Source: a virus. Taken from it: 21,153 nt of DNA. A program made the translations under genes and the position numbers. Under the pieces are notes generated by a model that was not told the origin of the DNA, made no database searches, and worked only from the letters and a program-made list of their open reading frames with translations. Position 1 is the stretch's first letter, and each line of letters starts with the position of its first letter. The stretch is from IMG/VR virus record IMGVR_UViG_3300007541_000286, positions 1 to 21,153 of that record; one strand, 5' to 3'. This document shows positions 3,143 through 20,628 of this stretch, in pieces.

Positions 3143-4813
3143 ATGACTGCTATTGATAGAAACAGTTTATTAAAGCGTTGGGAGCCACTCCTTGAAGGGA
3201 TCGGGGATGATCACATCGCATACCAGACAGCTCGTCTGTTAGAGAATCAGGCCAAAGAGTTCACCAAGACTAGAATGGACGAAGAGGCTTTAAGCCAGAC
3301 CGCCACCACCACAGGCAAGATCGGCACCTTCCAAAAGTGGGCTTTCCCACTTATTCGTCGTATGTACCCTGAGCTTATGTTCAACAAGATCGGTGCAACT
3401 CAGGCCATGGACGGCCCTGTCTCACAGATCTTCTACATGGGTAACTCACGTCACCATGACGGAAACACTCAGGTAATGTACTCCAAGTTTAACATTACCC
3501 CTCGGAACCTTACATCATCAGCTATTGGTTCATTCACTGGCACTTATGCACAGTCTAATCTTGCCGGTAATAATCCATGGATTCAGAATAACAATCCAGC
3601 AAGTGGTCTAACATACGATAGCGTTACTGGAGCCGCTTCATTTGATCTTTCAAACGTTCTAGGTCTCCATAACGGCTCTCCTTCAACCACCATGGGAGGT
3701 AAGTTAGCTTCTTTCCCAAGTGGAACTTCAATCCTGGGATACAGCGTTTCTGCTGCTGAGAGACTACGGGGCAACCTAATTCCAGAGATCTCCATGCATA
3801 TCCAGAAGCAGACCGTCCAGGCTCGTGAGCGCAAGATGAGAGCAGTGTGGACTCTAGAGGCCGCACAGGATCTCAAGGCTTACCACAACCTAGACATGGA
3901 AGCTGAGCTTACCGATCTCCTCTCAAAGGAAATGAACCTTGAGATTGATCGTGAGCTAATCGAAGATATCCGTATGATTGCTTATGGCCCAGGAGTTCTT
4001 GGCAGCACTGATGGTTTAAATGGCTGGTACCTACAGTCGCTATACCAGGGCGGCGCTGATAACTTCCCAGGAATTGGAGGTAACGCCGCCAACACCGCCG
4101 GAAACGGTGGAGTTTTCGTAGCAGGAAATTACGAATACGACTTTGATACTGCTCTAACCACCGAAGAGGGTACCGGAGCAGTTGGTGGAGGTGGAGGTAT
4201 TGATCGCAAGTATTCCAACATTTATGTCATGGATCTTGGAAGATTTGTTGATTCCACTACTTCTTTTGCTCCTCAGCATCTTGGTCACATGTACTCAAAT
4301 GTCCTAGCCTTGATCAACTTCGCTAGCACTGACATCTACCGTACGACTCTACGTGGCCCAGGTAACGTCATCATCACTTCACCAGTGATTGCTTCAATGC
4401 TTGAGTCAGCAGCTAAGCTTGAAGGTGGCCTACCAGCAGATGCAGGTCCAACGACCAACACTGCTACTCAGATTACTTACAAGGGCAAGTTCGCTGGTAA
4501 GTATGATCTAGTTGTTGATCCTATGTTCCCAGAGGACGAGATCATCATTGGCTATAAGGGTTCAAGCCCAATGGATGCAGGCTTCTTCTACTGCCCATAC
4601 ATCCCACTACAGCCACTAGATACCGTAGTTGATCCTGAGACCTTCCAACCACGGAAGGGCATCCTTACTCGTTACGGTAAGGTCGCTGTCCAACCAGCCT
4701 CAAGATTCTACCGCGTTATTCGCCTGATCGGAACTGGATCTGATTTCATCACGAAGGAGATCTTCCGTAACGGTTATAACAATGGAACCTCAATAAACGG
4801 TTACAGCACCTAA
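3143..4813 (+). CDS. gp23: Major capsid protein (gp23)
   Basis: A 556-residue T4 gp23-type HK97-fold capsid protein (T4 has 521). The N-terminus LLKRWEPLLEG closely follows T4's LLNKWKPLLEG, and the delta domain runs on with LLENQAKEF. The segment FPLIRRMYPEL with the following ATQAMDGPVSQIFYM is the conserved start of the mature shell protein. A central Gly-rich insertion (about residues 310-355) and the C-terminal FYRVIRLI with FITKEIFRNGY are also visible. Processing by gp21 is expected between about residues 45 and 60; EE-A at 47-49 is one candidate, but there is no perfect I/L-x-E site there. AGAGG (3132-3136) is the ribosome binding site. The gene looks more GC-rich, with many C-ending codons, than most of its neighbours, as expected for a very highly expressed gene. 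Two hairpins follow. Confidence 0.97.
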   Translation: MTAIDRNSLLKRWEPLLEGIGDDHIAYQTARLLENQAKEFTKTRMDEEALSQTATTTGKIGTFQKWAFPLIRRMYPELMFNKIGATQAMDGPVSQIFYMGNSRHHDGNTQVMYSKFNITPRNLTSSAIGSFTGTYAQSNLAGNNPWIQNNNPASGLTYDSVTGAASFDLSNVLGLHNGSPSTTMGGKLASFPSGTSILGYSVSAAERLRGNLIPEISMHIQKQTVQARERKMRAVWTLEAAQDLKAYHNLDMEAELTDLLSKEMNLEIDRELIEDIRMIAYGPGVLGSTDGLNGWYLQSLYQGGADNFPGIGGNAANTAGNGGVFVAGNYEYDFDTALTTEEGTGAVGGGGGIDRKYSNIYVMDLGRFVDSTTSFAPQHLGHMYSNVLALINFASTDIYRTTLRGPGNVIITSPVIASMLESAAKLEGGLPADAGPTTNTATQITYKGKFAGKYDLVVDPMFPEDEIIIGYKGSSPMDAGFFYCPYIPLQPLDTVVDPETFQPRKGILTRYGKVAVQPASRFYRVIRLIGTGSDFITKEIFRNGYNNGTSINGYST

Positions 4814-4844: not shown

Positions 4845-4877
4845 AAAGGGTTCGGATTATAATCCGAACCCTTTTTT
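4845..4877 (+). terminator. Rho-independent terminator after the major capsid gene
   Basis: A perfect 30-nt inverted repeat runs from AAAGGGTTCGG (from 4845) to CCGAACCCTTT (ending 4874), with an AT-rich centre, followed directly by a run of T to 4877. It would stop most transcription leaving the capsid gene and so separate it from the neck genes, which have their own promoter candidate at 4887. Confidence 0.93.
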
Positions 4878-4908: not shown

Positions 4909-6750
4909 ATGGCTGATAAACGATTAATTATTGCTTTTGGAGATTCAAACTGTGCAGGTAACGTAAATGCATCTTCAGTATCTTCATCTCCTGATTATTA
5001 TTACCTTTCAGGGACACAGACAAACTACAAGATTTGGAACCTAATTAGTAAGCAATGGGAGAATTATGATCCAAGCAATGCATATACAACTCAGCCAGTT
5101 GATTATGTCGGTCCTGAAATATCAATAGCATATACTGCTAACCTGAATGGAGGAGTCCCTGGGGGCACAGATATCCATGTGTTTAAGGCTTCCAAATACC
5201 AGATAAATATGTTGAAGTGGAATAACTCCGTAGATTTATCAGGTGTGGCTATCCCTGGAGGAGTTGACTACGATACATTATGGCCCTACGCAAAAACTAA
5301 CTTTTGGTCAGATGCTAATGCTGGTGTTGCAGTTCAATTGGCTAGTGCTGTTCAAGATCTTCAGGCTGGTGGTGCTAATACAGTTTATGTAGATGGTATG
5401 TATATCATCATGGGTACTTTGGATGCTTTGGCTCCTTATGGCTCTAAAGCATACAAGGGGCTGCTAATGGATCTAGCTGAGTTTATGTTTGATCATCTAA
5501 GAGGTTTAGGATGTGTTATAACAAACATCCACCCTGATCGAGCAGATGACCAACCTGTTGTTGTGTTCCCAGTAACTCATGATTCTTACTCAGGATTAAC
5601 AGTAGACGAGGAAGCTAGATTCGATGTTGTCAGGCAATCTACTAGAGATGCCGCTGAAGATCTATGTAATTTAGCTTATAAATCCTATAGTTTTGAAACA
5701 GTAACATACGGTATAAATCCTGATAAGGTTCACTATGACTTAAGTGGACTTGTTTCTATGTCACAGCAGATAGCCAATTTAATATACCCAACACTTGGTG
5801 ATGCTGCACCTTTATCGGATTGTGAAACTGATGTTGTAGAGAGGCTTCCTGAGGTTACTCTGACGTTTGCAGGTGCTGAAGATCTTCAATCCAACAAGAT
5901 AGGAGTTCCTAGAGTAACATCCTACGGGTCTTCATATGGCATTTACGGTGGAAGAAGATTAAAGGATTACGATACTCCTAGACCCGATGGTTTAAATGAT
6001 CGTGATGCACAAGATGTTGTAGAATTTAAAACATTTGATAGGACAGTTAAGGATTATGTACTATCGAAGCTTGGGTATCCTATAGTTGATGTTGAGCTTG
6101 ATGATTTCCAAATTAATGTATGCATTGATGAAGCTATATCAAAACTTGAATATCATGCTCCTGATTGGATGACTCAATATGCTACTTTTGAAGTAACAGG
6201 TGGGATAGGGGTATACGAGCTTCCACAACCAGTTGTAGATAATCTAAACGATGTTTGGTATCGAAGAGACTTCTTTAAGTTTGGGGCATCCCCTGGATCC
6301 TTAGAGTATGATTTTGCTGTGATGTTCTTCACTAATAATGGATTGTTTAACAATTACAATGTTAGTCAATACTTATTAATGCAGCAATACTTAAAACAAG
6401 TAAAGAACGTGCTGGGTCAAATGTCATCCTGGCAAGTCATTAATAATAAGTACCTACATATCTGGCCTGTACCGGAGAGCAGCACGGAAAGTGTTATACT
6501 GGAGTTTAGAGCATTTGATCCAAACACTATACACCATGCGTATAAGAGTTGGATACAAAGATACTCTCTAGCATTAGCTAAAGAAATTCTAGGTGGTATT
6601 AGAGGGAAGTATCAAACTCTCCCAGGTCCAGGGGGAGGAACAAGATTAAACGGACAACAACTTGTAGAGGAGGGTAGGCAAGAGAAACAAGAGCTTCTAG
6701 AGGAGTTAACAACTACCTTAGAAGGTCCACCACTATTTGATATAGTTTAG
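4909..6750 (+). CDS. SGNH-type esterase domain fused to gp13-like neck protein (copy 1)
   Basis: A 613-residue two-part protein. Residues 1 to about 300 form an SGNH/GDSL hydrolase of the carbohydrate-esterase kind. The nucleophile block is FGDSNCAG with Ser13; IIMGTLDAL (166-174) corresponds to the G-x-S/N-D-A block; DKVHYD (272-277) supplies the catalytic Asp272 and His275. Such enzymes remove acetyl or similar groups from polysaccharides. Residues about 327-613 match the T4 gp13 neck protein as I know it from T4-like cyanophages: KLGYPIVDVELDD, the EYDF segment, FRAFDP, then LPGPGGGTRLNG and a C-terminal PPLFDIV. T4 gp13 is about 309 residues, so the C-terminal part is nearly a whole gp13. 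The next gene ends in a very similar domain. Natural inference: an enzyme displayed at the head-tail neck. Substrate unknown. Confidence 0.85.
   Translation: MADKRLIIAFGDSNCAGNVNASSVSSSPDYYYLSGTQTNYKIWNLISKQWENYDPSNAYTTQPVDYVGPEISIAYTANLNGGVPGGTDIHVFKASKYQINMLKWNNSVDLSGVAIPGGVDYDTLWPYAKTNFWSDANAGVAVQLASAVQDLQAGGANTVYVDGMYIIMGTLDALAPYGSKAYKGLLMDLAEFMFDHLRGLGCVITNIHPDRADDQPVVVFPVTHDSYSGLTVDEEARFDVVRQSTRDAAEDLCNLAYKSYSFETVTYGINPDKVHYDLSGLVSMSQQIANLIYPTLGDAAPLSDCETDVVERLPEVTLTFAGAEDLQSNKIGVPRVTSYGSSYGIYGGRRLKDYDTPRPDGLNDRDAQDVVEFKTFDRTVKDYVLSKLGYPIVDVELDDFQINVCIDEAISKLEYHAPDWMTQYATFEVTGGIGVYELPQPVVDNLNDVWYRRDFFKFGASPGSLEYDFAVMFFTNNGLFNNYNVSQYLLMQQYLKQVKNVLGQMSSWQVINNKYLHIWPVPESSTESVILEFRAFDPNTIHHAYKSWIQRYSLALAKEILGGIRGKYQTLPGPGGGTRLNGQQLVEEGRQEKQELLEELTTTLEGPPLFDIV
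5887..6747 (+). repeat. Duplicated gp13 neck domain, copy 1
   Basis: Codes for residues 327-613 of the esterase fusion. The matching copy is at 8896-9756. By eye roughly four of five residues agree without any gap over 287 residues. The DNA also contains long identical runs, for example around TGGTATCGAAGAGACTTC. The duplication includes the linker with SYGSSYG, not just the folded neck domain. Confidence 0.92.
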
Positions 6751-6760
6751 TGCTTGTAGA

Positions 6761-6775
6761 GTATATAGAGTAGGT
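6761..6775 (+). promoter_or_regulatory. Candidate late promoter (GTATATA-NN-GTAGG class)
   Basis: GTATATA (6761-6767), two bases, then GTAGG (6770-6774), 6 nt before the ATG at 6781, in the 30-nt gap between the two neck genes. It differs at one base from the elements at 4887 and 11023. It is weaker than those, because GTATATA lacks the AAATA core. Confidence 0.38.
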
Positions 6776-6780
6776 AAGTT

Positions 6781-9759
6781 ATGTATTCAATATCAGTTAC
6801 TAGTAACTTTTCTGCCATACCCGAATTGGCTTCAGTGCCTCCTATTTCGGCATTGATAGTATCACAATATCCTATGCTGAGTGGCACCTACCCTGATCAC
6901 AGTGTTTGGGTTGCTCCGGTTTTCGCAGACGCTAATTTTTCAGCAACGGTATCTGCTTATACTCCTGAATACACTCAAGTTATGTGGTCAGAGTTCCCAA
7001 GTAATCCTAATTACCCTCTAGTTCCTTATTACATTAACGGGGCTGCTTGCAATCCTGCTGGTAACCTTAGAGGAACCCATTATGATCAAAGAGCTACTTC
7101 GAGGGGTTTTCCAATGGACTGGTATAACTCACATCAGCCTCCTTACGAAGTATCCGCAGACTATTGTTATATTATTGCTTCATCTTCTGATCTGTGGGTT
7201 TCAGGAAATCATCCATGGAACGCTGGTTATTGGACAAATACCCAGAGTAATGTAAGGTCTGCTATTGCCGCTAAGTTCCCTATAGTGTTTCTTAGTGCAG
7301 TACCTTCGGTTCCCACCTTTAGGCCGGGGCCTTTAGGGAAGGTGGAGGATAGAAGGTATTTCCCGTTATCAGACTTCGACGCTACCAGAATACCTCAAAT
7401 ATTTGGGGATGAAGATACAGGAACTTTTTCAGGGTATTATTATAGTAATGTTCCTAATCCAAGCATACCTAGCCCTGCTGTTAGTCCTAGTTGGATAGAT
7501 TTATATTTAGCTACATTATACTATGTTGGTGATGATTTATCGAGGTGGGGAACAGAGGCTCAATGCCCAGGGTACCACGGACCAGGGTATGGACAACAAT
7601 GGAGTGAGCTTCTTGGAACTATATTACTTAAGTCATTATTCAAGTATGATTACGAAGCAGAGGGGCATGACGCTGATTATAGAACTCTTACTTTAAGGAA
7701 TGTAACTCAATGGGGTATAGATTTATGGAGTGCTTTCCTTGATGAGAGACAATTTGAGCCTTTAGGCGGGCACATGCAAGGAAGAAAGTCAGCTATAATA
7801 GCAGCAGGAATCTTATTAGACGATCCTATTTTAAAAAATCCCGATGCCTACCTGGGGGATCACACCTTCACCGCTCCATACCGTCCAGGTCTTGGTAAAT
7901 TCCAAGAAAACCATGTTTTCTGGTCGGGTATTGATGAAGGATACAATGTTACTCCAAGTGCTTGGTTTAATGGATTTTATTGGGGACATGAATACCGTAT
8001 AGCTCGCAGTCATCCTTCAGCCACTAACGCATTTTTGAAAAATGATCCAAGTCTTTGGGACTACAATCAAGCCTTTGGTACTAAGTATTCTTTTGGAGAG
8101 AACTGTGAATCTCAATTTGGCATAGCGTTATTCATGCTAGCAATGGGGTATACTAAAAACTGGAGTCAGCCCATTATGGGAGCTACGACTCAAGGCACTT
8201 TTGGTATAACAAAGCCCTTTTGGGAAAAGATGTTTGGTACAGCGGCTGGGACTATATTAGACCCTAATTATTTAACTAACTTACCTGAGCATTTCGTAAG
8301 CTCCTTCCATACTAGTGCAGTTATTTTAGAATCTCACTCCTTATCAGGGACTCAAAGTTCTAAGAACTATACTGCTTACTATTTTAGAAAATATAGATTT
8401 TCTGATGAAATACATAATAACTTAAGTAATCACGGAAAAATAACATATCCACTTAAGTATATTGATATTCGAGATTTCTCAGGCCCATACTTAACTACAA
8501 ATGAAGAAATTATATGGGGAGAAAATAGACAGCTAGTATGGGAACTTTTCCAATGCCCTTCAGGAGCTACAGCTTTATTACACCGTGGAAAGATTCTAGA
8601 TACTCCAATTGATGTTGGCAACGGATATAAACTTTATATTGATCTTGAAAATACAGCGGCTACAAGCGTTCCGATATCAACGCCTAACAAGTATGGAGTA
8701 ACACTATACAAGGATACTTTAGGTGACGAACCTCCTGGAGGTTTATATGATAGATTTGGTTATCAAGCGGCCTTTTCTTTAGGTGATGGTACTTATATGA
8801 CTACTAATGCCGTTGAAATTGGACTTTATAATGATAACCCAGGACCAGAGGAAACAGGGGGTATAACTTTAACAGATTCGCAGCTAGCTGGTATTAGCAA
8901 TAACAAGATAGGTATTCCAACTGTTAAATCCTATGGATCCTCCTATGGGAAATATTCTGGGTCTAAGTTAAAAGACTACAAGTCCCCAAAGGATAATTAT
9001 TTAAATAACAAAGATTACAAGGATGTTGTAGAGTTCAAGGACTTTAACCGTACTGTTAAAGATTATGTCCTCACTAGGTTAGGATACCCTGTTGTAGATG
9101 TTGAGCTTGATGATTATCAAATAGAATTATGCATTGACGAAGCTATATCAAAACTTGAATACCATGCTCCTGATTGGATGACTCAGTATGCAGTATTTGA
9201 AACTTCCGGTGGTATAGGAGTTTATGATATTCCTAAACCCATAATAGATAACTTAAATGATGTTTGGTATCGAAGAGACTTCTTTAAGTTTGGAGCTTCT
9301 CCAGGTTCATTGGAGTACGACTTTGCTGTAATGTTCTTTACTAATAATGGATTGTTTAACAATTACAACGTTAGCCAGTATTTATTAATGCAGCAATACC
9401 TGAAACAAATAAAGAATGTTCTAGGTCAAATGTCTTCTTGGCAAGTTATCAACAATAAATATTTACATATCTGGCCGGTTCCTGAAAATAATACAGAGAG
9501 TGTTATTCTAGAGTTTAGAGCTTTTGATCCAGAAACTATACACCATGCTTACAAGAGTTGGGTACAAAGATTTGCATTAGCTTTATCTAAAGAAATTCTA
9601 GGAGGCATTCGTAGTAAGTACCAAACTCTTCCAGGTCCTGGTGGTGGAACTAGGCTTAATGGTTCAGAGCTTATTGCCCAGGCTAGAGAGGATAAGAAAC
9701 TACTTATAGAAGAGCTAACATCCTCAATAGAATCACCACCAATATTTGATATATTCTAA
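6781..9759 (+). CDS. Large putative carbohydrate-active module fused to gp13-like neck protein (copy 2)
   Basis: A 992-residue protein. Residues about 706-992 are a gp13 neck domain nearly identical in layout to that of the preceding gene (RLGYPVVDVELDD, FRAFDP, LPGPGGGTRLNG, PPIFDIF). The first 700 or so residues are unrelated to the SGNH domain of copy 1. They contain many Trp, Tyr and His residues. A helix-rich central part (about 235-480) has WIDLYLATLYYVGDDL and GRKSAIIAAGILLDDP, which resemble alpha/alpha-toroid polysaccharide lyases or glycoside hydrolases. A beta-rich stretch follows (about 540-690), as in such enzymes. That assignment is an impression from pattern, with no catalytic residue identified. 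TAA overlaps the next ATG by one base (TAATG). The gp13 part is confident; the N-terminal activity is not. Confidence 0.82.
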   Translation: MYSISVTSNFSAIPELASVPPISALIVSQYPMLSGTYPDHSVWVAPVFADANFSATVSAYTPEYTQVMWSEFPSNPNYPLVPYYINGAACNPAGNLRGTHYDQRATSRGFPMDWYNSHQPPYEVSADYCYIIASSSDLWVSGNHPWNAGYWTNTQSNVRSAIAAKFPIVFLSAVPSVPTFRPGPLGKVEDRRYFPLSDFDATRIPQIFGDEDTGTFSGYYYSNVPNPSIPSPAVSPSWIDLYLATLYYVGDDLSRWGTEAQCPGYHGPGYGQQWSELLGTILLKSLFKYDYEAEGHDADYRTLTLRNVTQWGIDLWSAFLDERQFEPLGGHMQGRKSAIIAAGILLDDPILKNPDAYLGDHTFTAPYRPGLGKFQENHVFWSGIDEGYNVTPSAWFNGFYWGHEYRIARSHPSATNAFLKNDPSLWDYNQAFGTKYSFGENCESQFGIALFMLAMGYTKNWSQPIMGATTQGTFGITKPFWEKMFGTAAGTILDPNYLTNLPEHFVSSFHTSAVILESHSLSGTQSSKNYTAYYFRKYRFSDEIHNNLSNHGKITYPLKYIDIRDFSGPYLTTNEEIIWGENRQLVWELFQCPSGATALLHRGKILDTPIDVGNGYKLYIDLENTAATSVPISTPNKYGVTLYKDTLGDEPPGGLYDRFGYQAAFSLGDGTYMTTNAVEIGLYNDNPGPEETGGITLTDSQLAGISNNKIGIPTVKSYGSSYGKYSGSKLKDYKSPKDNYLNNKDYKDVVEFKDFNRTVKDYVLTRLGYPVVDVELDDYQIELCIDEAISKLEYHAPDWMTQYAVFETSGGIGVYDIPKPIIDNLNDVWYRRDFFKFGASPGSLEYDFAVMFFTNNGLFNNYNVSQYLLMQQYLKQIKNVLGQMSSWQVINNKYLHIWPVPENNTESVILEFRAFDPETIHHAYKSWVQRFALALSKEILGGIRSKYQTLPGPGGGTRLNGSELIAQAREDKKLLIEELTSSIESPPIFDIF
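8896..9756 (+). repeat. Duplicated gp13 neck domain, copy 2
   Basis: Codes for residues 706-992, the partner of 5887-6747. Differences between copies lie mostly in the linker and in the last 30 residues. The block from DWMTQYA to NNKYLHIWPVPE is nearly unchanged, as expected if both copies occupy the same ring position. Many synonymous differences show the duplication is not brand new. Confidence 0.92.
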
Positions 9760-10301
9760 TGAGATTTAAAGTAAATACTCCTCCTACTAATTTCCCAGAA
9801 GCTAGGGATACTAGATTATCATTATTTAATAAAAAGAATGATAAGAATTTATTCAACATGATTGACTCAGAAAATATAAAACTATCTGGGTCGAGAGTTC
9901 AAGTGTTTGAGTATATTCCATCTGATGATATTGATGATGTTTATCAAGAGTCTAGACAAAAGGCTATTGCTTCTGAACCTGTTACACTTTGGGCTCACTA
10001 CGATCCACGTCCTATAGAGGAAAATCTTTCTCAGTTTGGCGTAGAAATGCAGATAGATCAAGTATTTGTTTTTAATAAGTCTTATACTGAAAACATTTTA
10101 GGGAGGCCAATAGCAATTGGGGATGTTATTAGACCTGAGTTTCAGGAAATTAAATTTGAGGTTTACGAAGTTCAAGAAGATAGCTTTGAAGCTTATGGTG
10201 TTTATCACTTGTTAGTTCATGCTAAACTTCTCAGAGATACTCAAGATATTCATAATGAAGATTACTTCGATAGGACTGATGATGTTGGAGGTAAAATATG
10301 A
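9759..10301 (+). CDS. gp14: Neck protein (gp14-like)
   Basis: A 180-residue protein directly after the gp13-type gene, starting at the TAATG overlap, and overlapping the gp15-type gene by 4 nt (ATGA). T4 gp14 is a head-completion protein that with gp13 forms the neck between portal and tail. Segments in keeping with that family are VTLWAHYDPRP (about 75-85), the GVEMQIDQVFVFNK strand (about 94-107), and PIAIGDVIRPEFQEIKFEV with the following strand pairs (about 117-150). It is shorter than T4 gp14 (about 256). The tight gp13-gp14-gp15 order and the translational coupling are the strongest evidence; the sequence match alone is moderate. Confidence 0.75.
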   Translation: MRFKVNTPPTNFPEARDTRLSLFNKKNDKNLFNMIDSENIKLSGSRVQVFEYIPSDDIDDVYQESRQKAIASEPVTLWAHYDPRPIEENLSQFGVEMQIDQVFVFNKSYTENILGRPIAIGDVIRPEFQEIKFEVYEVQEDSFEAYGVYHLLVHAKLLRDTQDIHNEDYFDRTDDVGGKI

Positions 10302-10975
10302 AACCTAACTTTAATGCAAGAAATCAAATTATGGATATGACTGAGAATAAGATTATTCCTGTAATTAATAACGTTTACAAGGAAAGCTTAAGGCAGATGT
10401 TACACATATTTAGTAACATTTATTATATTGACGGTAATGGTAATAGAGTTAAGGTTAAATGCTCTCATGGAAACCCTGAGAGGGTTGCTGGGAGGCTAAA
10501 AGCGGATAATACATTAATTCTGCCCATGATTACAATTGTTGAGAAACAAACTGTAAATTCTGAAGAAAGAAGAAGATACCGTCCAATTATAATTAACGAG
10601 TCTTATTGGGATCCTAATAAAAAAAGAGCAATTAGAATTGTAAGTCTAGCACCAAGACCAATAAACATAATTTACGAAATAAATGTATGGTGTAAGTATA
10701 AGGCAGATCTAGACATGATTAGATCTGGTGTCTTCTCTCTGTTCAATCCTGATTTAGATATCAGGACCAAATATTCAGATTTCAATAAGGGCTTTTTAGT
10801 ATCCGAAAGAGATATGGGTAACGTTATGGTCGGGGATACTAATGATAGGGTTTTGCAAAAGTCTATGGAGATATCTTTAGAAACTTATATTCCAAATCCA
10901 AAATTCCAGTTCACTAGTACAGGAGAGATAATGGAAGTCGATGTTAATTTTGAGTATAATATTGATGAATCGTAA
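10298..10975 (+). CDS. gp15: Tail terminator / proximal sheath stabiliser (gp15-like)
   Basis: A 225-residue protein of the T4 gp15 family, which caps the head-proximal end of the tail and joins it to the neck. Recognisable features are the basic strand RAIRIVSLAPRPINIIYEI (about 109-127), NVWCKYKADLDMI, the FNPD segment, and the near-diagnostic ETYIPNPKFQFTSTG (about 196-210). T4 gp15 is about 272 residues. It overlaps gp14 by 4 nt and is followed by 72 nt containing a promoter candidate, so it ends the neck operon. A role as terminator is well supported by both motif and order. Confidence 0.88.
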   Translation: MKPNFNARNQIMDMTENKIIPVINNVYKESLRQMLHIFSNIYYIDGNGNRVKVKCSHGNPERVAGRLKADNTLILPMITIVEKQTVNSEERRRYRPIIINESYWDPNKKRAIRIVSLAPRPINIIYEINVWCKYKADLDMIRSGVFSLFNPDLDIRTKYSDFNKGFLVSERDMGNVMVGDTNDRVLQKSMEISLETYIPNPKFQFTSTGEIMEVDVNFEYNIDES

Positions 10976-13999: not shown

Positions 14000-16495
14000 A
14001 TGAGTATTTACATTGATTTACTAAAAAGTTTTAGTAGGGTCCATAAAAGAGATATTAGATTATTAGAGCAGGGACCCACCAGCCCATCCCCTGAGGCTCA
14101 GCAACTGGCTAATCAGGCTGTAGCCCAAGGTAGTCAATCTACCTCACCAACTCCTGTAAAAGGTAATGAGTCTGTGAAAGTATGGACAGCACAAGGAGGT
14201 GCTACCCAAGGTAGGGTTGTTTATCAAGTAGGATCAAGAAATAGAGGTGCTGTGGATGATAGTTGGGATGAGTTCGTCAGCCTTTTCGAGATTGGCGATA
14301 AGCAAGGGGATGAGGCTGGAGTAGGTGGCACTACAGATATAAATCAAGCTGAGTTAAGGTCTCTACCCCCAGATCAACAGTTTGAAGTTAGACAACAACA
14401 ACTTTTAGAATCAACTGATCTTACACAAGAAACTAAGGATGCTGTAGTCAACTCTTTCAGAGAAATTTACAACCGTAAAGATGCTATTTATAAAGCAATG
14501 TCCAAGGAGCCTATAGCAAAAAACGTAGGCTCGGCGTCTCAGTATGCAAGATATCTTTTTGGTACAACTAGTTGGTCATTCCAGAAAAGCTTATTAGCTC
14601 CAAAATTTACTCTTAACTTTGAAAACGGAATATGGACTTCACAGGAACAACCACTTCAAGAGGCTCAGACTTCATTGATAAGTGACTCTTTTAAAGATTT
14701 ATTAAACTTCATTGCTGATTCATCTGAAAAGGGCGTTACGGAAAAAGATTGTGAAAAAAGTAAGCAAATTTTATCTGGCTTTTATAAAACTAATAGAGGA
14801 GATGTTGTTGTTAAGCCAAAAGGAGATGCATCCCAGGGTCTTTCATTTGATGGTGGCGAAGGAAGAGGTGCATTCCTAAGAGAAGTTATTGATAAAGCCG
14901 CTTCAATTTGTGGACATGCTATAGAAACCTTAACTGTAAGAGCACCAATCACTGGCACAGGTAATTCAAATAATATTAGAGGAACAGGCGCTGAAGACAT
15001 ACTTGAAATAGCATCATTAGCTATACTTGCTAGATCAGATCAATTTGGTGGTAAACTTCCTGATGAGTTAGCAACCATGAGGACAATGAAGCTTTCTACT
15101 TTGTATGAAAAACTTAAGAAGGCTAAAATAGATTCAGAGGGTTGGGTTAGAGCCACTCAAGAATCTGGTATAGACCCGGAGACAGTATCTCTAGCTAAGG
15201 ATCTTTATGAGGCGTTTCAGGTTGATGATCAAGGTAAAACTCTTATTCAAAGTATATTGGAGCACAGTTTAGAGACTCTAAAAGTAAGAAAGCCAGTATA
15301 CGCAGTTCCCGTGGGTGATCAGGTAGGCGGAGGTAAGAGACAAGATATTTTTGAAGTTTTCAATAGTAATGATGAGGCAGTAGCAGCAGCTAATAGATCA
15401 GGTCTTAGTGTTACACCTGTAGAGATGAGTATCGAAGATGCATTCGGACCTAGGAAACAAGAAGAACTAGAAGCTTTAAAGAGGGCAGGAATTTTCAAAG
15501 ATGGTCAAGTAGTATCAGTTCTTAAGGTAAGTCTTAAGAATTATTTAGAACTTGATTCTGCCAAATATGGAAGTGGATCAGCTAACACTTTTGCTGGTGC
15601 GAATGGATTAATGCGTAAAAGTTATGCTAGTGAACCTCTACTAGCTACTATCTCCAGTAACCTACAAATGAGTAGGACGGATCAGCAAAATATGCGTAAT
15701 TATTTTAATCAAATTGATGAAATAGCTAAAAGCGTTTTCGATGTACCCAAGAATGTTATAGTCACTACATCTGATGGTAAAAAACTAAATGCTCGTTCAA
15801 ACGCACAGCAGACTTTTGCTAAAAGTATCATAGATAAGCTTTCGGGCTTAGGCTATACTGATAATCCAAAATTAAAAGATATAATGGATAATTGTAAAAA
15901 GATAATTAGTAAAATAGGAACTAAGTATGAGCTAGATGCTGCTATTGATTCCCTTAAGAATCAAACAGTTACATGGTTACAGTCATCCCAAATATCAAAA
16001 GATTTACTATCAAGCGACCCAATTACTAAAAAGAATGCTCAAATGTTTTTGGCTCATAAAATGTTCCACTCTGGTGGTTCCGATGACAATAACTTAATTT
16101 GCGATTATAGAGATCTAACTGCTAAGAAAAACTACATATTTAGACAAAATGATCCACTAAGAGATGCCTGGAGATCCGTTATGGGAGGTCAAGCTGACTC
16201 TAGAGGAAACACATGGGACTTGCTTATGGATCCTGTAACTGGAGAATCCAGGATAACTACTGGAAAGGGTTCTAATAGACTTGAAATCAAGCTTAAGAAT
16301 AACTTTTCGTTAAATAAGAGTGGAGATACTGGTAGGGTTAAGAGCCATCATACTAACTTTATCTTAGAAGTTAATAGGGCAGTTATGGAAGCCTACCACA
16401 AACAAACTATAGCTGAGAATATTAATCAAGAATTGGGAACTCTTTTGAAGAATATGGGAATATTACTCGAAAAAATGAGAATCTCTAACTTTTAG
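14000..16495 (+). CDS. Large hypothetical protein, possible virion component
   Basis: An 831-residue protein that I do not recognise. The first 24 residues (MSIYIDLLKSFSRVHKRDIR, then LLE-Q) form a basic amphipathic segment ending in L-x-E, like a prohead-protease propeptide, though Gln after the cut is not ideal. Residues about 25-55 are Gln/Ser/Pro-rich and probably flexible. The remainder looks globular and largely helical, with PDELATMRTMKLSTLYEKLK near 355 and a C-terminal helix VNRAVMEAYHKQTIAENI near 795. No transmembrane segment or enzyme motif stands out. The gene begins without a visible ribosome binding site, 5 nt after a TATGAT box, and its end overlaps the convergent nuclease gene by 33 nt. 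It follows the tube gene in the place of the T4 portal gene, but I see no portal features. A packaged, ejected protein is one possibility. Confidence 0.7.
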   Translation: MSIYIDLLKSFSRVHKRDIRLLEQGPTSPSPEAQQLANQAVAQGSQSTSPTPVKGNESVKVWTAQGGATQGRVVYQVGSRNRGAVDDSWDEFVSLFEIGDKQGDEAGVGGTTDINQAELRSLPPDQQFEVRQQQLLESTDLTQETKDAVVNSFREIYNRKDAIYKAMSKEPIAKNVGSASQYARYLFGTTSWSFQKSLLAPKFTLNFENGIWTSQEQPLQEAQTSLISDSFKDLLNFIADSSEKGVTEKDCEKSKQILSGFYKTNRGDVVVKPKGDASQGLSFDGGEGRGAFLREVIDKAASICGHAIETLTVRAPITGTGNSNNIRGTGAEDILEIASLAILARSDQFGGKLPDELATMRTMKLSTLYEKLKKAKIDSEGWVRATQESGIDPETVSLAKDLYEAFQVDDQGKTLIQSILEHSLETLKVRKPVYAVPVGDQVGGGKRQDIFEVFNSNDEAVAAANRSGLSVTPVEMSIEDAFGPRKQEELEALKRAGIFKDGQVVSVLKVSLKNYLELDSAKYGSGSANTFAGANGLMRKSYASEPLLATISSNLQMSRTDQQNMRNYFNQIDEIAKSVFDVPKNVIVTTSDGKKLNARSNAQQTFAKSIIDKLSGLGYTDNPKLKDIMDNCKKIISKIGTKYELDAAIDSLKNQTVTWLQSSQISKDLLSSDPITKKNAQMFLAHKMFHSGGSDDNNLICDYRDLTAKKNYIFRQNDPLRDAWRSVMGGQADSRGNTWDLLMDPVTGESRITTGKGSNRLEIKLKNNFSLNKSGDTGRVKSHHTNFILEVNRAVMEAYHKQTIAENINQELGTLLKNMGILLEKMRISNF

Positions 16496-17002
16496 TAGTT
16501 CCTTAAGGCTAACGATCATTACTCTGGACCCACCAGACACTCCTACAAACATATTACCTTCCACTGGTAGATTCAGATCGTTAGTTATAGCTATAGGATC
16601 CTTCCTGTCTTGACCGATAATCAGGAAAAACTTTTTAGAACATTTTTCTGAATCTCTTGATGCTTGAGCTATCATCTTTGAAATATTAGATTTTGGGTTT
16701 AAGAGATCACATATTTGTTCTTCGTTATAACCTTTCTTACATTCAATTATGTATTTAAAATCTTTTGGTGTTATTAAGTCTCCATATACTTTTAAGTATT
16801 CAGGTAATTTATGAGTAGTAGCAAAAGCTCCAGAACCAGGAGTTCTACAGAACTCTTTAGTATTAAATCTTTCATTTAGAGATTTAGCTATTTTATTCTC
16901 GAACCTATTACCTTTAGCCTTAGAGTTTATTTTTGCTTTCTTTCCACTAATATTTCTTTTTAGTGAAGTCACATCGAAATCATCTTCAACAAAATCCCTC
17001 AT
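16463..17002 (-). CDS. PD-(D/E)XK nuclease, Holliday-junction-resolvase-like
   Basis: A 179-residue nuclease with the resolvase-type PD-(D/E)XK signature. KGNRFENKIAKSLNERF (30-46) contains the helix-1 Glu35; CRTPGSGAF (52-60) follows; YGDLI gives Asp75; YIIECKKGY (84-92) gives Glu87 and Lys89. All catalytic positions are present. The rest includes a helix and FFLIIGQDRKDP (about 124-135), as in the fold's later strands. Likely role: cutting branched DNA made during replication and recombination, clearing it before packaging, the job of endonuclease VII (gp49) in T4. The ATG at 17002 lies 5 nt after TATAAT on the minus strand and lacks a ribosome binding site, so its message is probably leaderless. 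Its 3' end overlaps the convergent upstream gene by 33 nt. Confidence 0.82.
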   Translation of the reverse strand: MRDFVEDDFDVTSLKRNISGKKAKINSKAKGNRFENKIAKSLNERFNTKEFCRTPGSGAFATTHKLPEYLKVYGDLITPKDFKYIIECKKGYNEEQICDLLNPKSNISKMIAQASRDSEKCSKKFFLIIGQDRKDPIAITNDLNLPVEGNMFVGVSGGSRVMIVSLKELLKVRDSHFFE

Positions 17003-17308: not shown

Positions 17309-17660
17309 TTTTTCATCTGTTAGAGTAGACAACTCTAAACATTTAGAATCCATTGTTCAATCAAATATTGATGGTAAAAATACATCTTACTATTTGATTA
17401 CTAATCAATGGGATATTCCGTGCAAATACTTCAATGATAATCTACCATCTGAAGGTGACACAGACCTTAATGTGATAGATATATTTGATGTTCCAAACGC
17501 TCTAGATATTATAAAGTCTGCTATTAAGTCTAATAGGGAGACTATTTCTACATCATGCCTATCAAAGTATGATCAGCTTCCAATGCTTGTGGTTATTCAC
17601 AAGTCATTCCCTAGAGTGGTCACCTACAATGGCTCAGTAGGCGCGGAACTGGGGATATAG
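17289..17660 (+). CDS. Possible thioredoxin-fold protein with degenerate active site
   Basis: A 123-residue protein whose pattern recalls thioredoxin. YYLITNQWDIPCKYFNDNL (38-56) aligns with the strand-WCxxC-helix unit but has WDIPC, so only the second Cys is kept. LNVIDIFDVPNALDII (64-79) fits the next strand and helix. YDQLPMLVVIH (97-107) would hold the cis-Pro before the fourth strand, and RVVTYNG (112-118) the last strand. With one Cys it could not act as a normal dithiol reductant and would be a binding or regulatory protein, or a monothiol enzyme. It overlaps the preceding gene by 20 nt, and its last 37 nt overlap the convergent sigma gene. The fold call is tentative. Confidence 0.6.
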   Translation: MSKQKTNFSSVRVDNSKHLESIVQSNIDGKNTSYYLITNQWDIPCKYFNDNLPSEGDTDLNVIDIFDVPNALDIIKSAIKSNRETISTSCLSKYDQLPMLVVIHKSFPRVVTYNGSVGAELGI

Positions 17661-17989
17661 TCCCCAGTCTTATAACTTATATAAGAAGCTAGCTTATCAT
17701 TATACTTCTTATTTTTAGAGTAGATAAGCCTAAGATTATTTAAGATTACGGTTGTAAAGTAATTGAAGGCTTGTCCCTCTTCCCTCTTGAAATTGTTTAG
17801 GACTTTTAGTATAAGTAGGAAGCACTCTTGTTTCGCTTCCTCGTGATCAACATTAAACTTGAATGAGATCATTAACCTATCAATCAAGGTATTGAACATG
17901 AGGAACAGTTCATCCTCATCCCTTCGGATACCGGACTTGTAGGATTGTATTAGCTCTTCAAATCTTTTGTTGTCAATATAGTTTGTCAC
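17624..17989 (-). CDS. gp55: Late-transcription sigma factor (gp55-like)
   Basis: A 121-residue protein with a sigma region-2-like core. AKQECFLLILKVLNNFKREEG (52-72) and AFNYFTTVILNNLRLIYSK (74-92) correspond to the sigma pattern of QEG-helix, F-x-x-x-x-G and F-x-(T/Y)-(Y/F)-x-x-x-x-I-x-N. The N-F-YFTTVI-N form is that of T4 gp55, which directs RNA polymerase to late promoters. It is shorter than T4 gp55 (185) and ends in SSAPTEPL, without the hydrophobic sliding-clamp-binding tail of T4 gp55. The start is a GTG, 6 nt after TATCAT, with no ribosome binding site. Its presence fits the TAAATA boxes before the structural genes. The 3' end overlaps the convergent gene by 37 nt. Confidence 0.83.
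   Translation of the reverse strand: MTNYIDNKRFEELIQSYKSGIRRDEDELFLMFNTLIDRLMISFKFNVDHEEAKQECFLLILKVLNNFKREEGQAFNYFTTVILNNLRLIYSKNKKYNDKLASYISYKTGDYIPSSAPTEPL
17648..17668. other. Hairpin in the overlap of two convergent genes
   Basis: ACTGGGGA and TCCCCAGT make an 8-bp GC-containing stem with a 5-nt loop, and the plus-strand stop codon TAG (17658-17660) lies in that loop. It is inside the coding ends of both convergent genes. No T-run follows on either strand, so termination would be weak; it may cause pausing or be a shared RNA end. Confidence 0.5.
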
Positions 17990-17994
17990 TTTAC

Positions 17995-18001
17995 TATGAT
18001 A
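17995..18001. promoter_or_regulatory. Palindromic bidirectional -10 element between sigma and polymerase genes
   Basis: ACTATGATAGT (17993-18003) is a perfect odd palindrome. On the plus strand TATGAT (17995-18000) is followed by AGTCTC and the ATG at 18007. On the minus strand TATCAT (18001-17996) is followed by AGTAAA and the GTG at 17989. The start codons lie 6 nt from the box in both directions. A possible -35 for the plus side, TTGTCA, is at 17970-17975 with a 19-bp spacer; none is convincing on the minus side. Confidence 0.6.
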
Positions 18002-18006
18002 GTCTC

Positions 18007-19047
18007 ATGCCAGAACTAAGTTTTCAAGGGGACAATCCTAAGTGTTTAGGATGCCCTGCTCTTAAGAAGAATTTACCAGCGCACACAATTCTAGATTATG
18101 AATATGATGATTCTCCTGTAGACATTCTATTCCTATCTGATTCACCCAAGATGTTTGAAGGAGAGTATGTCTCTTTTAGACCACAGGAGTTCAGAGTTAT
18201 CATGCAGGAACTCTCGGATCTGGGAGTTCTAAGTAAGTTTAAAGTGGCATTTACTACAGCAGTTAAGTGTCCATCAATCACTTCAGAGAATCTTTCTACA
18301 GGTATTAGAAAGAAGTGTGTAGCCCATCTGTATGATACTATTGATCATTATAAGCCTTCCTTAGTATTTGCCTGTGGCAAGGTGGCAACTACCATGCTGT
18401 ATGGTAAAGCTAAAGAAGAGGGTAAGGTTCGTGGAAAAGTCGATTGGTTAAAGACAACTGAAGGGCATGAATTCAGGGTAGTTCCAATCATTCACCCTTT
18501 CCAGGTTGTAGCTGAGCCTAAGAATGCTTACTTGTTCTCTAAAGATTTGCATAATGCTGTAAATAATGAACTCCTAGGTAAGTCTTCTGAAGCTAAAGTC
18601 CCATACACTATGCCTTTAAGTATAGAGGAACTCAACTCAGTGTCTGATGAGTTCATCGACACAGATAAGGACATAGCAGTTGATATTGAAACTACTGGTC
18701 TAAACTTCCTAGAGGACACTATCCATACGGTTTCCATTACGCTAGTAGACAGGGATACCGGTGAGCTTGGGCGCACACTAGTGTTACCAATTGATCATAA
18801 GGAAGCTAAGCTCGGTTACAAGATCAAGGGCGCATTCCTAACCTTTGTATGTAAGGCAATGGCAAACAAGAAGAACCGTAAGATCCTTCAAAATGCAGGA
18901 TTCGATCTTAAGTTTATGAAGCGGTATGGTGTAGACGAAGTGTATAATGTGTATGACACCAAGCTCCTCCAACACTTGTATCGTGAGGACGTGCCAAAGA
19001 GCTTGGCAGATTTAGTAAGTTACTATTTCCCTGAGGAGAAGTTCTAA
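18007..19047 (+). CDS. DNA polymerase family A, part 1: UDG-like domain plus truncated 3'-5' exonuclease
   Basis: A 346-residue N-terminal piece of a family A replicative polymerase. Residues 1 to about 190 resemble family 4 uracil-DNA glycosylases: Cys13 and Cys16 (CLGC) with Cys88 and Cys104 (C-x15-C) are the four ligands of a 4Fe-4S cluster, and IIHPF (161-165) takes the place of the HPS block. The usual GExPG catalytic motif is replaced by SDSP (44-47), so glycosylase activity is doubtful. SPO1-like phage polymerases carry a similar N-terminal domain. Residues from about 220 are the proofreading exonuclease: DIETTG (Asp226, Glu228), NAGFD (Asp300), YDT (317). It stops at PEEKF before exo motif III, which lies in the next frame. 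The ATG at 18007 is preferred to an upstream TTG at 17983, because it sits 6 nt after TATGAT. Confidence 0.85.
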   Translation: MPELSFQGDNPKCLGCPALKKNLPAHTILDYEYDDSPVDILFLSDSPKMFEGEYVSFRPQEFRVIMQELSDLGVLSKFKVAFTTAVKCPSITSENLSTGIRKKCVAHLYDTIDHYKPSLVFACGKVATTMLYGKAKEEGKVRGKVDWLKTTEGHEFRVVPIIHPFQVVAEPKNAYLFSKDLHNAVNNELLGKSSEAKVPYTMPLSIEELNSVSDEFIDTDKDIAVDIETTGLNFLEDTIHTVSITLVDRDTGELGRTLVLPIDHKEAKLGYKIKGAFLTFVCKAMANKKNRKILQNAGFDLKFMKRYGVDEVYNVYDTKLLQHLYREDVPKSLADLVSYYFPEEKF

Positions 19048-19571
19048 TGCTTACAGTTGAAGGTAAAAACTTTGATTGGAAGAATATCCCCCTACTCCAG
19101 TGTGCAGAAGGTAATGCAAAAGACACCTATGCCACTGCTAAAGTGTATGTGAAGTTGCTTGATGAAGTACGTCAAAAAGGGCTTGAGAAACTCTACGATA
19201 AGTTGATTGCCCCACTATCGGTAGCTTTCATGGACATGGAATATGAAGGTCTTCTTATTGATGAGGATAAGCTAAACCAGTTGGATTCAGAACTTCAAAA
19301 CAAGATCTCCTCTTCAGATGCTGCACTGAGAGAAGCTGCTGGATTAGAGTCCGGCACCAACCTGAATTCCACAAATCAGCTTATTAAGGTAATCTACTCT
19401 TTTGAGAAAAACGAAGAAGGTGAGTGGATTCAGGTTGAAGACTTCGGACTAGGGTTGTATCCTTTCGAGTTCACTAAGAAGGGTGCTCCATCTACTAACG
19501 AGGAGACCCTTACAAAAGTAAAGTCCATGGTAGAAGAAGAGTTTGTTTCCAGAGGATTGAGCATTGAATAA
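19047..19571 (+). CDS. DNA polymerase family A, part 2: exo motif III and thumb
   Basis: A 174-residue middle piece of the polymerase. CAEGNAKDTYATAKVY (19-34) is exonuclease motif III with the metal-binding Asp26, completing the site begun by Asp226, Glu228 and Asp300 of the preceding frame. KLIAPLSVAFMDMEYEGLLI (about 54-73) and LNSTNQLIKVIY (about 106-117) with TKKGAPSTNEETL are the standard thumb elements. The start codon overlaps the preceding stop (TAATG), and GGAG (19036-19039) is 7 nt upstream, so coupled translation is possible. The frame is -1 relative to part 1. The sequence reads on from part 1 without any missing homology, so the break is either a true split gene or a single-base error. 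Confidence 0.82.
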   Translation: MLTVEGKNFDWKNIPLLQCAEGNAKDTYATAKVYVKLLDEVRQKGLEKLYDKLIAPLSVAFMDMEYEGLLIDEDKLNQLDSELQNKISSSDAALREAAGLESGTNLNSTNQLIKVIYSFEKNEEGEWIQVEDFGLGLYPFEFTKKGAPSTNEETLTKVKSMVEEEFVSRGLSIE

Positions 19572-20628
19572 CGAAGAGACAGCTATTGCTAGATCTGTTC
19601 TTGCGAACATGTCTAATGAGCAGATCATTTCAGCAAAAAGATTCTTTGATCGGTTTTCTGAATATAAGAAGCTGACCAAGTTGCATTCCGTCTATATTGA
19701 AGGCACAAGACAGGCTCTCAAGAATACAGGTAACAGTCGTATCTACGTAAAGTATAATATCGACGGGACTGTTACAGGTCGCATCTCGAACTCTGGAGCT
19801 AACATCGGACGCAAGAGGGAGGATAAGATCGGTGTGTCATTCCACACTCTCCCCCGTGAAGCTCTAGACGTAAACATTCGAGATTACGTGGTAGCTCCTC
19901 CTGGTTGGGACTTCATTACAATCGACATGAAGGCGATGGAGCTACGAGTCCTAGCACACGTAGCAAATGAACGCAACATGATCCATGCTTTCGAGAGTGG
20001 TGTGGATCTTCACAGCTACTCAGCAGGGCTTACCTTTAAGAAGGATCCTAGTGAAGTATCCAAGCTGGAGAGACAGATTGCTAAGGAAGTTAGCTTCCTT
20101 ACTGTATATGGTGGGACAGCGTTCACACTAGCTTCTAAGCGCAATATCCCTGAGGAGCGTGCCGAGGAGATCATCAACAACTGGATGTCTGCATTCCCAG
20201 GGGTGGGACGCTACATGAACACCATTGATGAATACATTAAACAGTTCGGGTATGCGAAGACTATCTTCGGTAGATTCCGCCACCTGCCGAACATCAACTC
20301 ACCCTTTAAAGGAGTCCGCAGAGAAGCTTTCCGCCAGGGCCTGAACTTCACAATCCAATCCGCTGCTAGTGATATTCTCCTGTGTGGTATGCTTGGTGTT
20401 ATTGAAAAGCTCAAGGGCATGAAGGCCAAGGTTGTGGCTACAGTTCACGACTCCATTGAACTGATTGCACCCAAGAGTGAGACAAAGGAAGTTGTAAGGA
20501 TCGTGAAGGATGAGCTTGAGAACTATCACTACCTAAGAGAAAACTTCCACATCAATCTCAAGGTTCCCCTCGCAGTTGATGTGGAAGTCGGTTCTAGCTT
20601 TGGTAATGGCGTGGAATATGGAGTTTAG
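19564..20628 (+). CDS. DNA polymerase family A, part 3: palm and fingers
   Basis: A 354-residue polymerase domain. GTVTGRISN (68-76) binds primer-template. Motif A is DFITIDMKAMELRVLAH, with Asp121 and Glu126; DYSQIELR of typical enzymes has become DMKAMELR. Motif B is R170-x3-K174-x3-F178-x3-YG, and Phe178 predicts discrimination against dideoxynucleotides as in E. coli Pol I. Motif C is VHDSIE with Asp296, where Ser replaces the usual Glu. The first possible start is TTG at 19564, 7 nt after AGAGGA (19551-19556), overlapping the previous stop by 8 nt. A TGA at 19558 closes the frame upstream. The frame is the same as that of part 1, so the two breaks cancel. The three pieces total about 874 residues, close to SPO1-type polymerases. 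T4 itself uses family B. Confidence 0.88.
   Translation: MNNEETAIARSVLANMSNEQIISAKRFFDRFSEYKKLTKLHSVYIEGTRQALKNTGNSRIYVKYNIDGTVTGRISNSGANIGRKREDKIGVSFHTLPREALDVNIRDYVVAPPGWDFITIDMKAMELRVLAHVANERNMIHAFESGVDLHSYSAGLTFKKDPSEVSKLERQIAKEVSFLTVYGGTAFTLASKRNIPEERAEEIINNWMSAFPGVGRYMNTIDEYIKQFGYAKTIFGRFRHLPNINSPFKGVRREAFRQGLNFTIQSAASDILLCGMLGVIEKLKGMKAKVVATVHDSIELIAPKSETKEVVRIVKDELENYHYLRENFHINLKVPLAVDVEVGSSFGNGVEYGV

Follow-up and report, generated by a model that had tools for sequence, protein, structure and literature searches.

The 21,153 nucleotides analysed here (21 kb), called the window, come from an uncultured T4-like virus of bacteria; they form one contig of an incomplete genome and carry a T4-like structural block. 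The genes follow a T4-like order, running from the gp21 protease through a gp22-position gene and gp23 to two consecutive copies of gene 13, a gp14-position gene, gp15, the sheath gp18 and the tube gp19. The first-pass annotation had described tandem, adjacent gp13 genes at this locus, and both open reading frames are indeed present (Table 1). Each encodes a gp13 domain at its C-terminus with a different module in front of it. The T4 late-promoter motif TATAAATA showed no excess, and an Rfam search returned no match.

Table 1. Features of the tandem gp13 locus and its immediate neighbors in the window
Feature	Coordinates	Strand	Basis and remarks
gp23 major capsid protein, upstream neighbor	3143..4813	+	PF07068 3e-75
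Perfect hairpin and T-run, resembling an intrinsic terminator, between gp23 and gene 13-1	4847..4877	+	Sequence read directly, no program score
Gene 13-1 (SGNH-like module and gp13)	4909..6750	+	613 aa; 99.8% in L001/L002, 56% over the whole length in L009/L038
Module 1, residues 1-300, SGNH/CE6-like esterase (predicted)	4909..5808	+	Motifs, conservation, Foldseek and VIA-align on a low-confidence model
gp13 copy 1, residues 327-613	5887..6750	+	phrog_211 6e-24; PDB gp13 1e-14; hhalign 99.8%
Gene 13-2 (module 2 and gp13)	6781..9759	+	992 aa; L009/L038 homologue 1101 aa
Module 2, residues 1-690, phage virion domain	6781..8850	+	Conserved motifs; relatives L089, Halley gp45/phrog_34846, Mwe-JY25
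gp13 copy 2, residues 706-992	8896..9759	+	phrog_211 1.8e-20; 79% identity to copy 1
gp14-position neck gene, 180 aa, downstream neighbor	9759..10301	+	Position, 78-89% identity in relatives; weak phrog_11591 virion protein match
gp15 tail sheath stabiliser	10298..10975	+	PF16724 4e-8

Other genes of the window are listed here for completeness. The gp21-type prohead protease (1245-2435, + strand) has a long C-terminal extension with a (KP)n repeat, and the length of this protein varies widely among relatives, from 360 to 609 aa. Adjoining the structural block on the opposite strand is a PDDEXK_15 phage endonuclease gene (16463-17002, - strand). A 121-aa ORF (17624-17989, - strand) resembles by eye a sigma-factor region 2 protein of the T4 gp55 type; Pfam gave no match. 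A family A DNA polymerase is split across three consecutive ORFs (17983-20628, + strand): one fuses a uracil-DNA glycosylase to the 3'-5' exonuclease, one is only 174 aa long, and one, in a different frame, encodes the polymerase domain.

The two gp13 domains and their relatives

That both genes end in nearly the same 287-residue gp13 domain, as first annotated, is borne out by sequence and profile comparison. The two C-termini are identical at 226/285 aligned positions (79%), with an alignment score of 1281 where the highest of 300 shuffles reached 66, and their DNA is 75% identical. Both match phrog_211, 'head-tail adaptor Ad2' (6e-24 for copy 1 and 2e-20 for copy 2), and copy 1 also matches the solved gp13 chains 9mkb and 9lu4 in the PDB (1e-14). 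A family profile of 15 sequences aligned by hhalign with the gp13 proteins of T4, cyanophage, Vibrio phage and GAP32 at 99.8% probability over 220 columns. Both domains retain the family's invariant residues, and both fused genes lie directly upstream of the gp14-position gene and gp15, as in the gp13 family. The phrog_211, PDB and hhalign matches rule out a tail-fibre identity for the C-terminal domain, which the profiles place in gp13 and not in a non-neck family. No third, stand-alone gp13 was found in the window or in the 40-kb contig of a sister phage, both of them incomplete genomes. If gp13 is essential here as it is in T4, at least one fused copy must therefore serve as the neck protein.

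We scanned IMG/VR twice with the gp13 domain, and each scan recovered about 80 loci, mostly the same set, the second of them from 85 confirmed; this database is thus nearly exhausted for the family. Single and double gp13 genes were counted over 71 related contigs that cover the stretch from gp23 to gp14. In 68/71, gp13 is single and bare, with a length of 286-295 aa, and only three (L002, L009 and L038) encode two fused copies. L002 and a further contig without gp23 (L001) derive from the same virus as the window, at more than 99% identity, and carry the same tandem. The other two, L009 and L038, represent a diverged sister phage in which the two proteins are 687 and 1101 aa long and both front modules occur in the same order. 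The first-pass annotation was right that T4 gp13 (309 aa) is single-copy and lacks an extension; a bare single copy is also the rule among these relatives, and the architecture is unusual against T4 and the 68 single-copy relatives alike.

A tandem seen in a single window on an incomplete contig could in principle be an assembly error or a broken duplication confined to one virus. We consider this next to impossible, since the same arrangement recurs nearly identically in L001 and L002 and in diverged form in L009 and L038, with full-length open frames everywhere. Four other, independent contigs refute an assembly artefact. Between the sister phage and the window, identity is 74-80% in the gp13 parts, about 40% in module 1 and 33-38% in module 2. 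Because the tandem and the module order are kept in a diverged phage while the gp13 parts remain this similar, neither copy nor either module is decaying.

The bare relatives also reveal where the modules were joined. Their proteins begin with MGDKIGIP, and the fusions continue into xNKIGxP or xGKIGIP at the same point; the conserved 45-residue N-terminal arm of the stand-alone protein is kept inside gp13 copy 1 of the fusion. As the fusion point coincides with the start of the bare proteins, we conclude that the modules were added ahead of a complete gp13, at its native start. The phrog_211 profile itself has about 720 columns ahead of the gp13 part, which suggests that some classified phage gp13 proteins already carry a long N-terminal extension. 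No such extension was found among the isolates inspected, whose gp13 proteins are roughly 240-400 aa.

In gp13 trees, the two copies of each phage tend to group together (support 97/90 and 89/88 for L009, 85/88 for the window), with alternative topologies that are not rejected (AU p 0.25 and 0.096). Over codons 81-120, the two window copies have 81% of codons in common, compared to 41-57% between phages. Gene conversion between the two gp13 copies is the likely cause, and the within-phage clustering together with the codon likeness fits conversion that keeps both copies compatible with one ring.

The single-gp13 relatives have variable genes in the interval between gp15 and a small pre-sheath gene. 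L005 is among them, and this contig encodes a 767-aa protein (L005:6579-8879, + strand) with a match to the alpha-L-arabinofuranosidase B catalytic domain (2e-12) and FG-GAP repeats. The variable interval is missing from both tandem-gp13 phages.

The front modules

Module 1 carries the sequence landmarks of an SGNH hydrolase. Ser13, Asp272 and His275, listed for the SGNH esterase in the first-pass annotation, are located as described: S13 lies in a GDSN block (codon 4945-4947), and D272 (5722-5724) and H275 (5731-5733) lie in DKVH, with G169-T-L-D172 (5413-5424) between them. S13 thus gives the module its block I Ser close to the N-terminus, and D272 and H275 supply a block V DxxH close to the C-terminal end. 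The GDSN, GTLD and DKVH blocks, including S13, D272 and H275, are all conserved in the sister phage. Sequence searches found nothing further. Pfam and NCBIfam gave no family match, with PF13472 and PF03629 absent even at E 10 per genome; the PDB gave no meaningful sequence match and PADLOC none, and direct tblastn found no copy in GenBank phages.

Structure prediction for both modules drew on only 2-4 sequences, and the AlphaFold models have mean pLDDT of 33 (module 1) and 35 (module 2). With this low-confidence model of module 1, Foldseek placed SGNH carbohydrate esterases on top (At4g34215, SIAE, XAC1771, CE2), and nearly all of the best 45 VIA-align rows were SGNH hydrolases. The leading rows were the cyanopodophage Pan3 tailspike (Z 8.7), a putative acetylxylan esterase (8.0) and NanS (7.6), with the N4 tail complex, a phage virion protein like the Pan3 tailspike, also among the best (Z 5.9), on a scale where unrelated folds commonly score up to a Z of about 8. 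The motifs support the SGNH esterase first annotated on copy 1, and structure comparison refines it towards the CE6/SASA-like branch of carbohydrate esterases. Module 1 is therefore best read as an SGNH/CE6-like O-acetylesterase, an activity predicted from motifs and a model; we call it CE6-like, and not a CE6 member, because sequence profiles miss the family.

The sister phage also encodes a 1679-aa tail protein (Tail_P2_I; L101:9056-14095, - strand) with an inserted canonical SASA/CE6 esterase domain. In pairwise and hhalign comparisons of this domain with module 1, only block I aligns. The tail of the sister phage thus seems to bear a second acetylesterase, and O-acetylated polysaccharide, by extension, seems important to this lineage.

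The first-pass annotation also described a 700-residue module on copy 2 resembling alpha/alpha-toroid polysaccharide-degrading enzymes. The module itself is real and conserved, including in the sister phage, with conserved FRPG (180-183), HxPGYGQ (266-272), GID (312-314) and GGH (329-331) motifs; structure comparison on a weak model neither confirmed nor contradicted the toroid resemblance. The weak model predicts a beta region, a helical core (238-484) and a beta-sandwich (560-681), in that order. This is the layout of some toroid lyases, and together with the GGH and HxPGYGQ motifs it is what speaks for a toroid lyase or hydrolase. There was, however, no toroid among the structure matches listed for this model, and no Pfam family was matched, so we regard the toroid reading as unlikely. 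The C-terminal part had only beta-sandwich or CBM-like structure matches, on the same weak model.

Module 2 has relatives in other phages. One is a 582-aa protein (L089, 4e-17) that adjoins a portal-position gene on a podovirus-like contig. L089 in turn matches phrog_34846 (7e-18), the Omegavirus minor tail proteins of mycobacteriophages (Halley gp45), which carry a lectin-like LamG domain; the direct match between module 2 and phrog_34846 is weak (0.005). A protein of Microcystis phage Mwe-JY25, encoded next to a tail-fibre gene, matches the module 2 profile at 1e-22 (a one-sequence search), and matches both the joint profile and single members. FRP and GGH are among the residues common to the family. 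Module 2 was not found by direct tblastn of GenBank phages, and its GenBank kin were reached only via L089; it was likewise absent from the bacterial genomes scanned and had no match in Pfam, NCBIfam or PADLOC and nothing meaningful by sequence in the PDB. A 17-sequence alignment, in which L089 was misaligned onto gp13, was left out of the folding of whole copy 2. Judged by these profile relationships, module 2 falls within a phage-specific family of virion-protein domains, so far unnamed.

Two database annotations within this family are of interest. The Mwe-JY25 protein (L102:5638-9153) is annotated as 'carbohydrate esterase', for which Pfam gives no support, and NC_022066 gene 43 (Redno2) is annotated as 'lysin A', while its relative Halley has a separate annotated lysin A.

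Both modules might instead be adhesins, that is, neck-borne carbohydrate-binding domains used for attachment, with the SGNH fold of module 1 kept for binding. The LamG domain in the kin of module 2 and its CBM-like C-terminal matches point this way, as do lactococcal 936 phages, whose neck carries carbohydrate-binding modules that bind hosts (PMC6669499). Yet the sister phage keeps all three of the catalytic Ser, Asp and His in module 1 though 60% of the module has changed, and we think this alternative improbable, if less so than the toroid reading.

Proposed display at the neck

We propose that the neck adaptor gene 13 was duplicated and that each copy received a different surface module at its N-terminus, joined precisely where the ordinary 287-residue protein begins. 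Both fused proteins would then enter the neck ring, with membership inferred from T4, so that the decoration would be covalent on gp13 and the duplication would let one ring carry two kinds of decoration. Module 1 would deacetylate a host surface polysaccharide as an SGNH-type O-acetylesterase, and module 2 would be a glycan-binding or glycan-cleaving virion domain directed at the same or a neighboring polymer. In this way, the neck might help the virion hold, open or cross the sugar layer of the host. On balance we favor this arrangement, in which both copies contribute to the ring and pair an esterase with a glycan-binding or -cleaving partner. Neck display and a mixed gp13 ring are extrapolated from gene content and the T4 structure; the stoichiometry, outward display, catalysis and substrates of both modules are likewise deduced, as is the acetylated-capsule substrate that the first-pass annotation had the two modules share. 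That a diverged phage keeps the two modules paired makes their cooperation more likely.

One fused copy alone could also build the neck ring, the other being a repurposed gp13 that anchors its module elsewhere on the virion, such as at a few sites or in a second ring on the collar. The copies differ at about 21% of positions, which is enough for specialisation, and the module on copy 2 is much the heavier. Both gp13 domains nevertheless keep the invariant residues and cluster by phage, not by copy, and we hold such a division of labor to be rather unlikely.

Returning to the favored mixed ring, T4 gp13 forms a 12-mer on a gp14 6-mer (PMC12270204), and with twelve seats on a six-fold partner, six subunits of each kind would fit well, though any mixture is possible. 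Strict alternation of the two proteins in one hetero-12-mer on the six-fold gp14 ring is a speculative refinement that we doubt more than we believe. If true, the neck would bear different surface enzymes in two interleaved six-fold sets, an ordered array of two enzymes that arose by duplication of a connector subunit. Carrying 300-800 extra residues on 12 ring subunits could be sterically difficult.

Tail spikes, fibres and baseplates are known sites of phage enzymes that attack host polysaccharides. If the fusions are in virions, the head-tail connector ring would join these as a display platform for polysaccharide-directed enzymes, and a normally homomeric ring would become two-component. 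Whether a duplicated connector gene can give twelve seats on a six-fold partner two payloads is thereby made a testable question. The fusions would show a natural way of attaching surface modules to the neck of a contractile phage, and module 2 brings to light a phage domain family that has no name yet. In the literature searched, with incomplete coverage, we found no description of a gp13-enzyme fusion, nor of a connector protein that is duplicated and bears two distinct surface modules; N-terminally extended gp13 may already be known, given the long phrog_211 profile.

Comparison with known systems

Virion SGNH esterases or deacetylases on tails (PMC8471582) and neck-borne carbohydrate-binding modules (PMC6669499) are each known separately. 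The Pan3 tailspike (9vyh) and the N4 tail complex (9lc0) resemble gene 13-1 in having an SGNH or deacetylase domain within a virion protein, and Acinetobacter phage Aristophanes carries a structural polysaccharide deacetylase on its virion (PMC8471582). All three are tail spikes or tail proteins, however, not neck adaptors, and have no second module paired on a duplicated ring protein. The top structural neighbors of module 1, CE6/SASA-type esterases such as At4g34215, SIAE and NanS, likewise have their Ser in a G-[DQ]-S-N block and a terminal DxxH; unlike module 1, these are cellular enzymes, and they gave no sequence-profile match to it at the thresholds tried. Halley gp45 has the core of module 2 in common, bridged by L089, but is an Omegavirus minor tail protein with a LamG domain and no gp13.

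In lactococcal 936 phages, a neck passage structure places carbohydrate-binding modules at the neck, one of which was shown to bind its host (PMC6669499). These phages are similar in displaying carbohydrate-directed modules at this site; they differ in being siphophages that use a separate neck-passage protein, for binding and not catalysis, and that have no gp13.

A further close parallel is T4 gp13 with fibritin (gpWac). The T4 gp13 ring sits between the portal and gp14, and its domain III holds twelve fibritin fibres, six as whiskers and six in the collar (PMC12270204). Shared with the window are the gp13 family, its position before gp14-gp15, and a decoration gene adjoining gene 13, wac lying directly upstream of gene 13 in T4; in Campylobacter phage CP81 and cyanophages, too, gene 13 is immediately preceded by surface-type genes. 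The likeness to fibritin is one of gene position only. T4 has one gp13 gene with neither fusion nor enzyme, and its fibritin, a coiled-coil trimer with a foldon, is a separate protein bound via domain III, a region (T4 residues about 190-239) that hhalign identifies as an insertion in T4 and that is absent from the gp13 family of the window. Where T4 binds its decoration, the fusions would carry it covalently. What the two systems would have in common is the gp13 ring as carrier of neck decorations, known from structure in T4 and proposed here from the genes.
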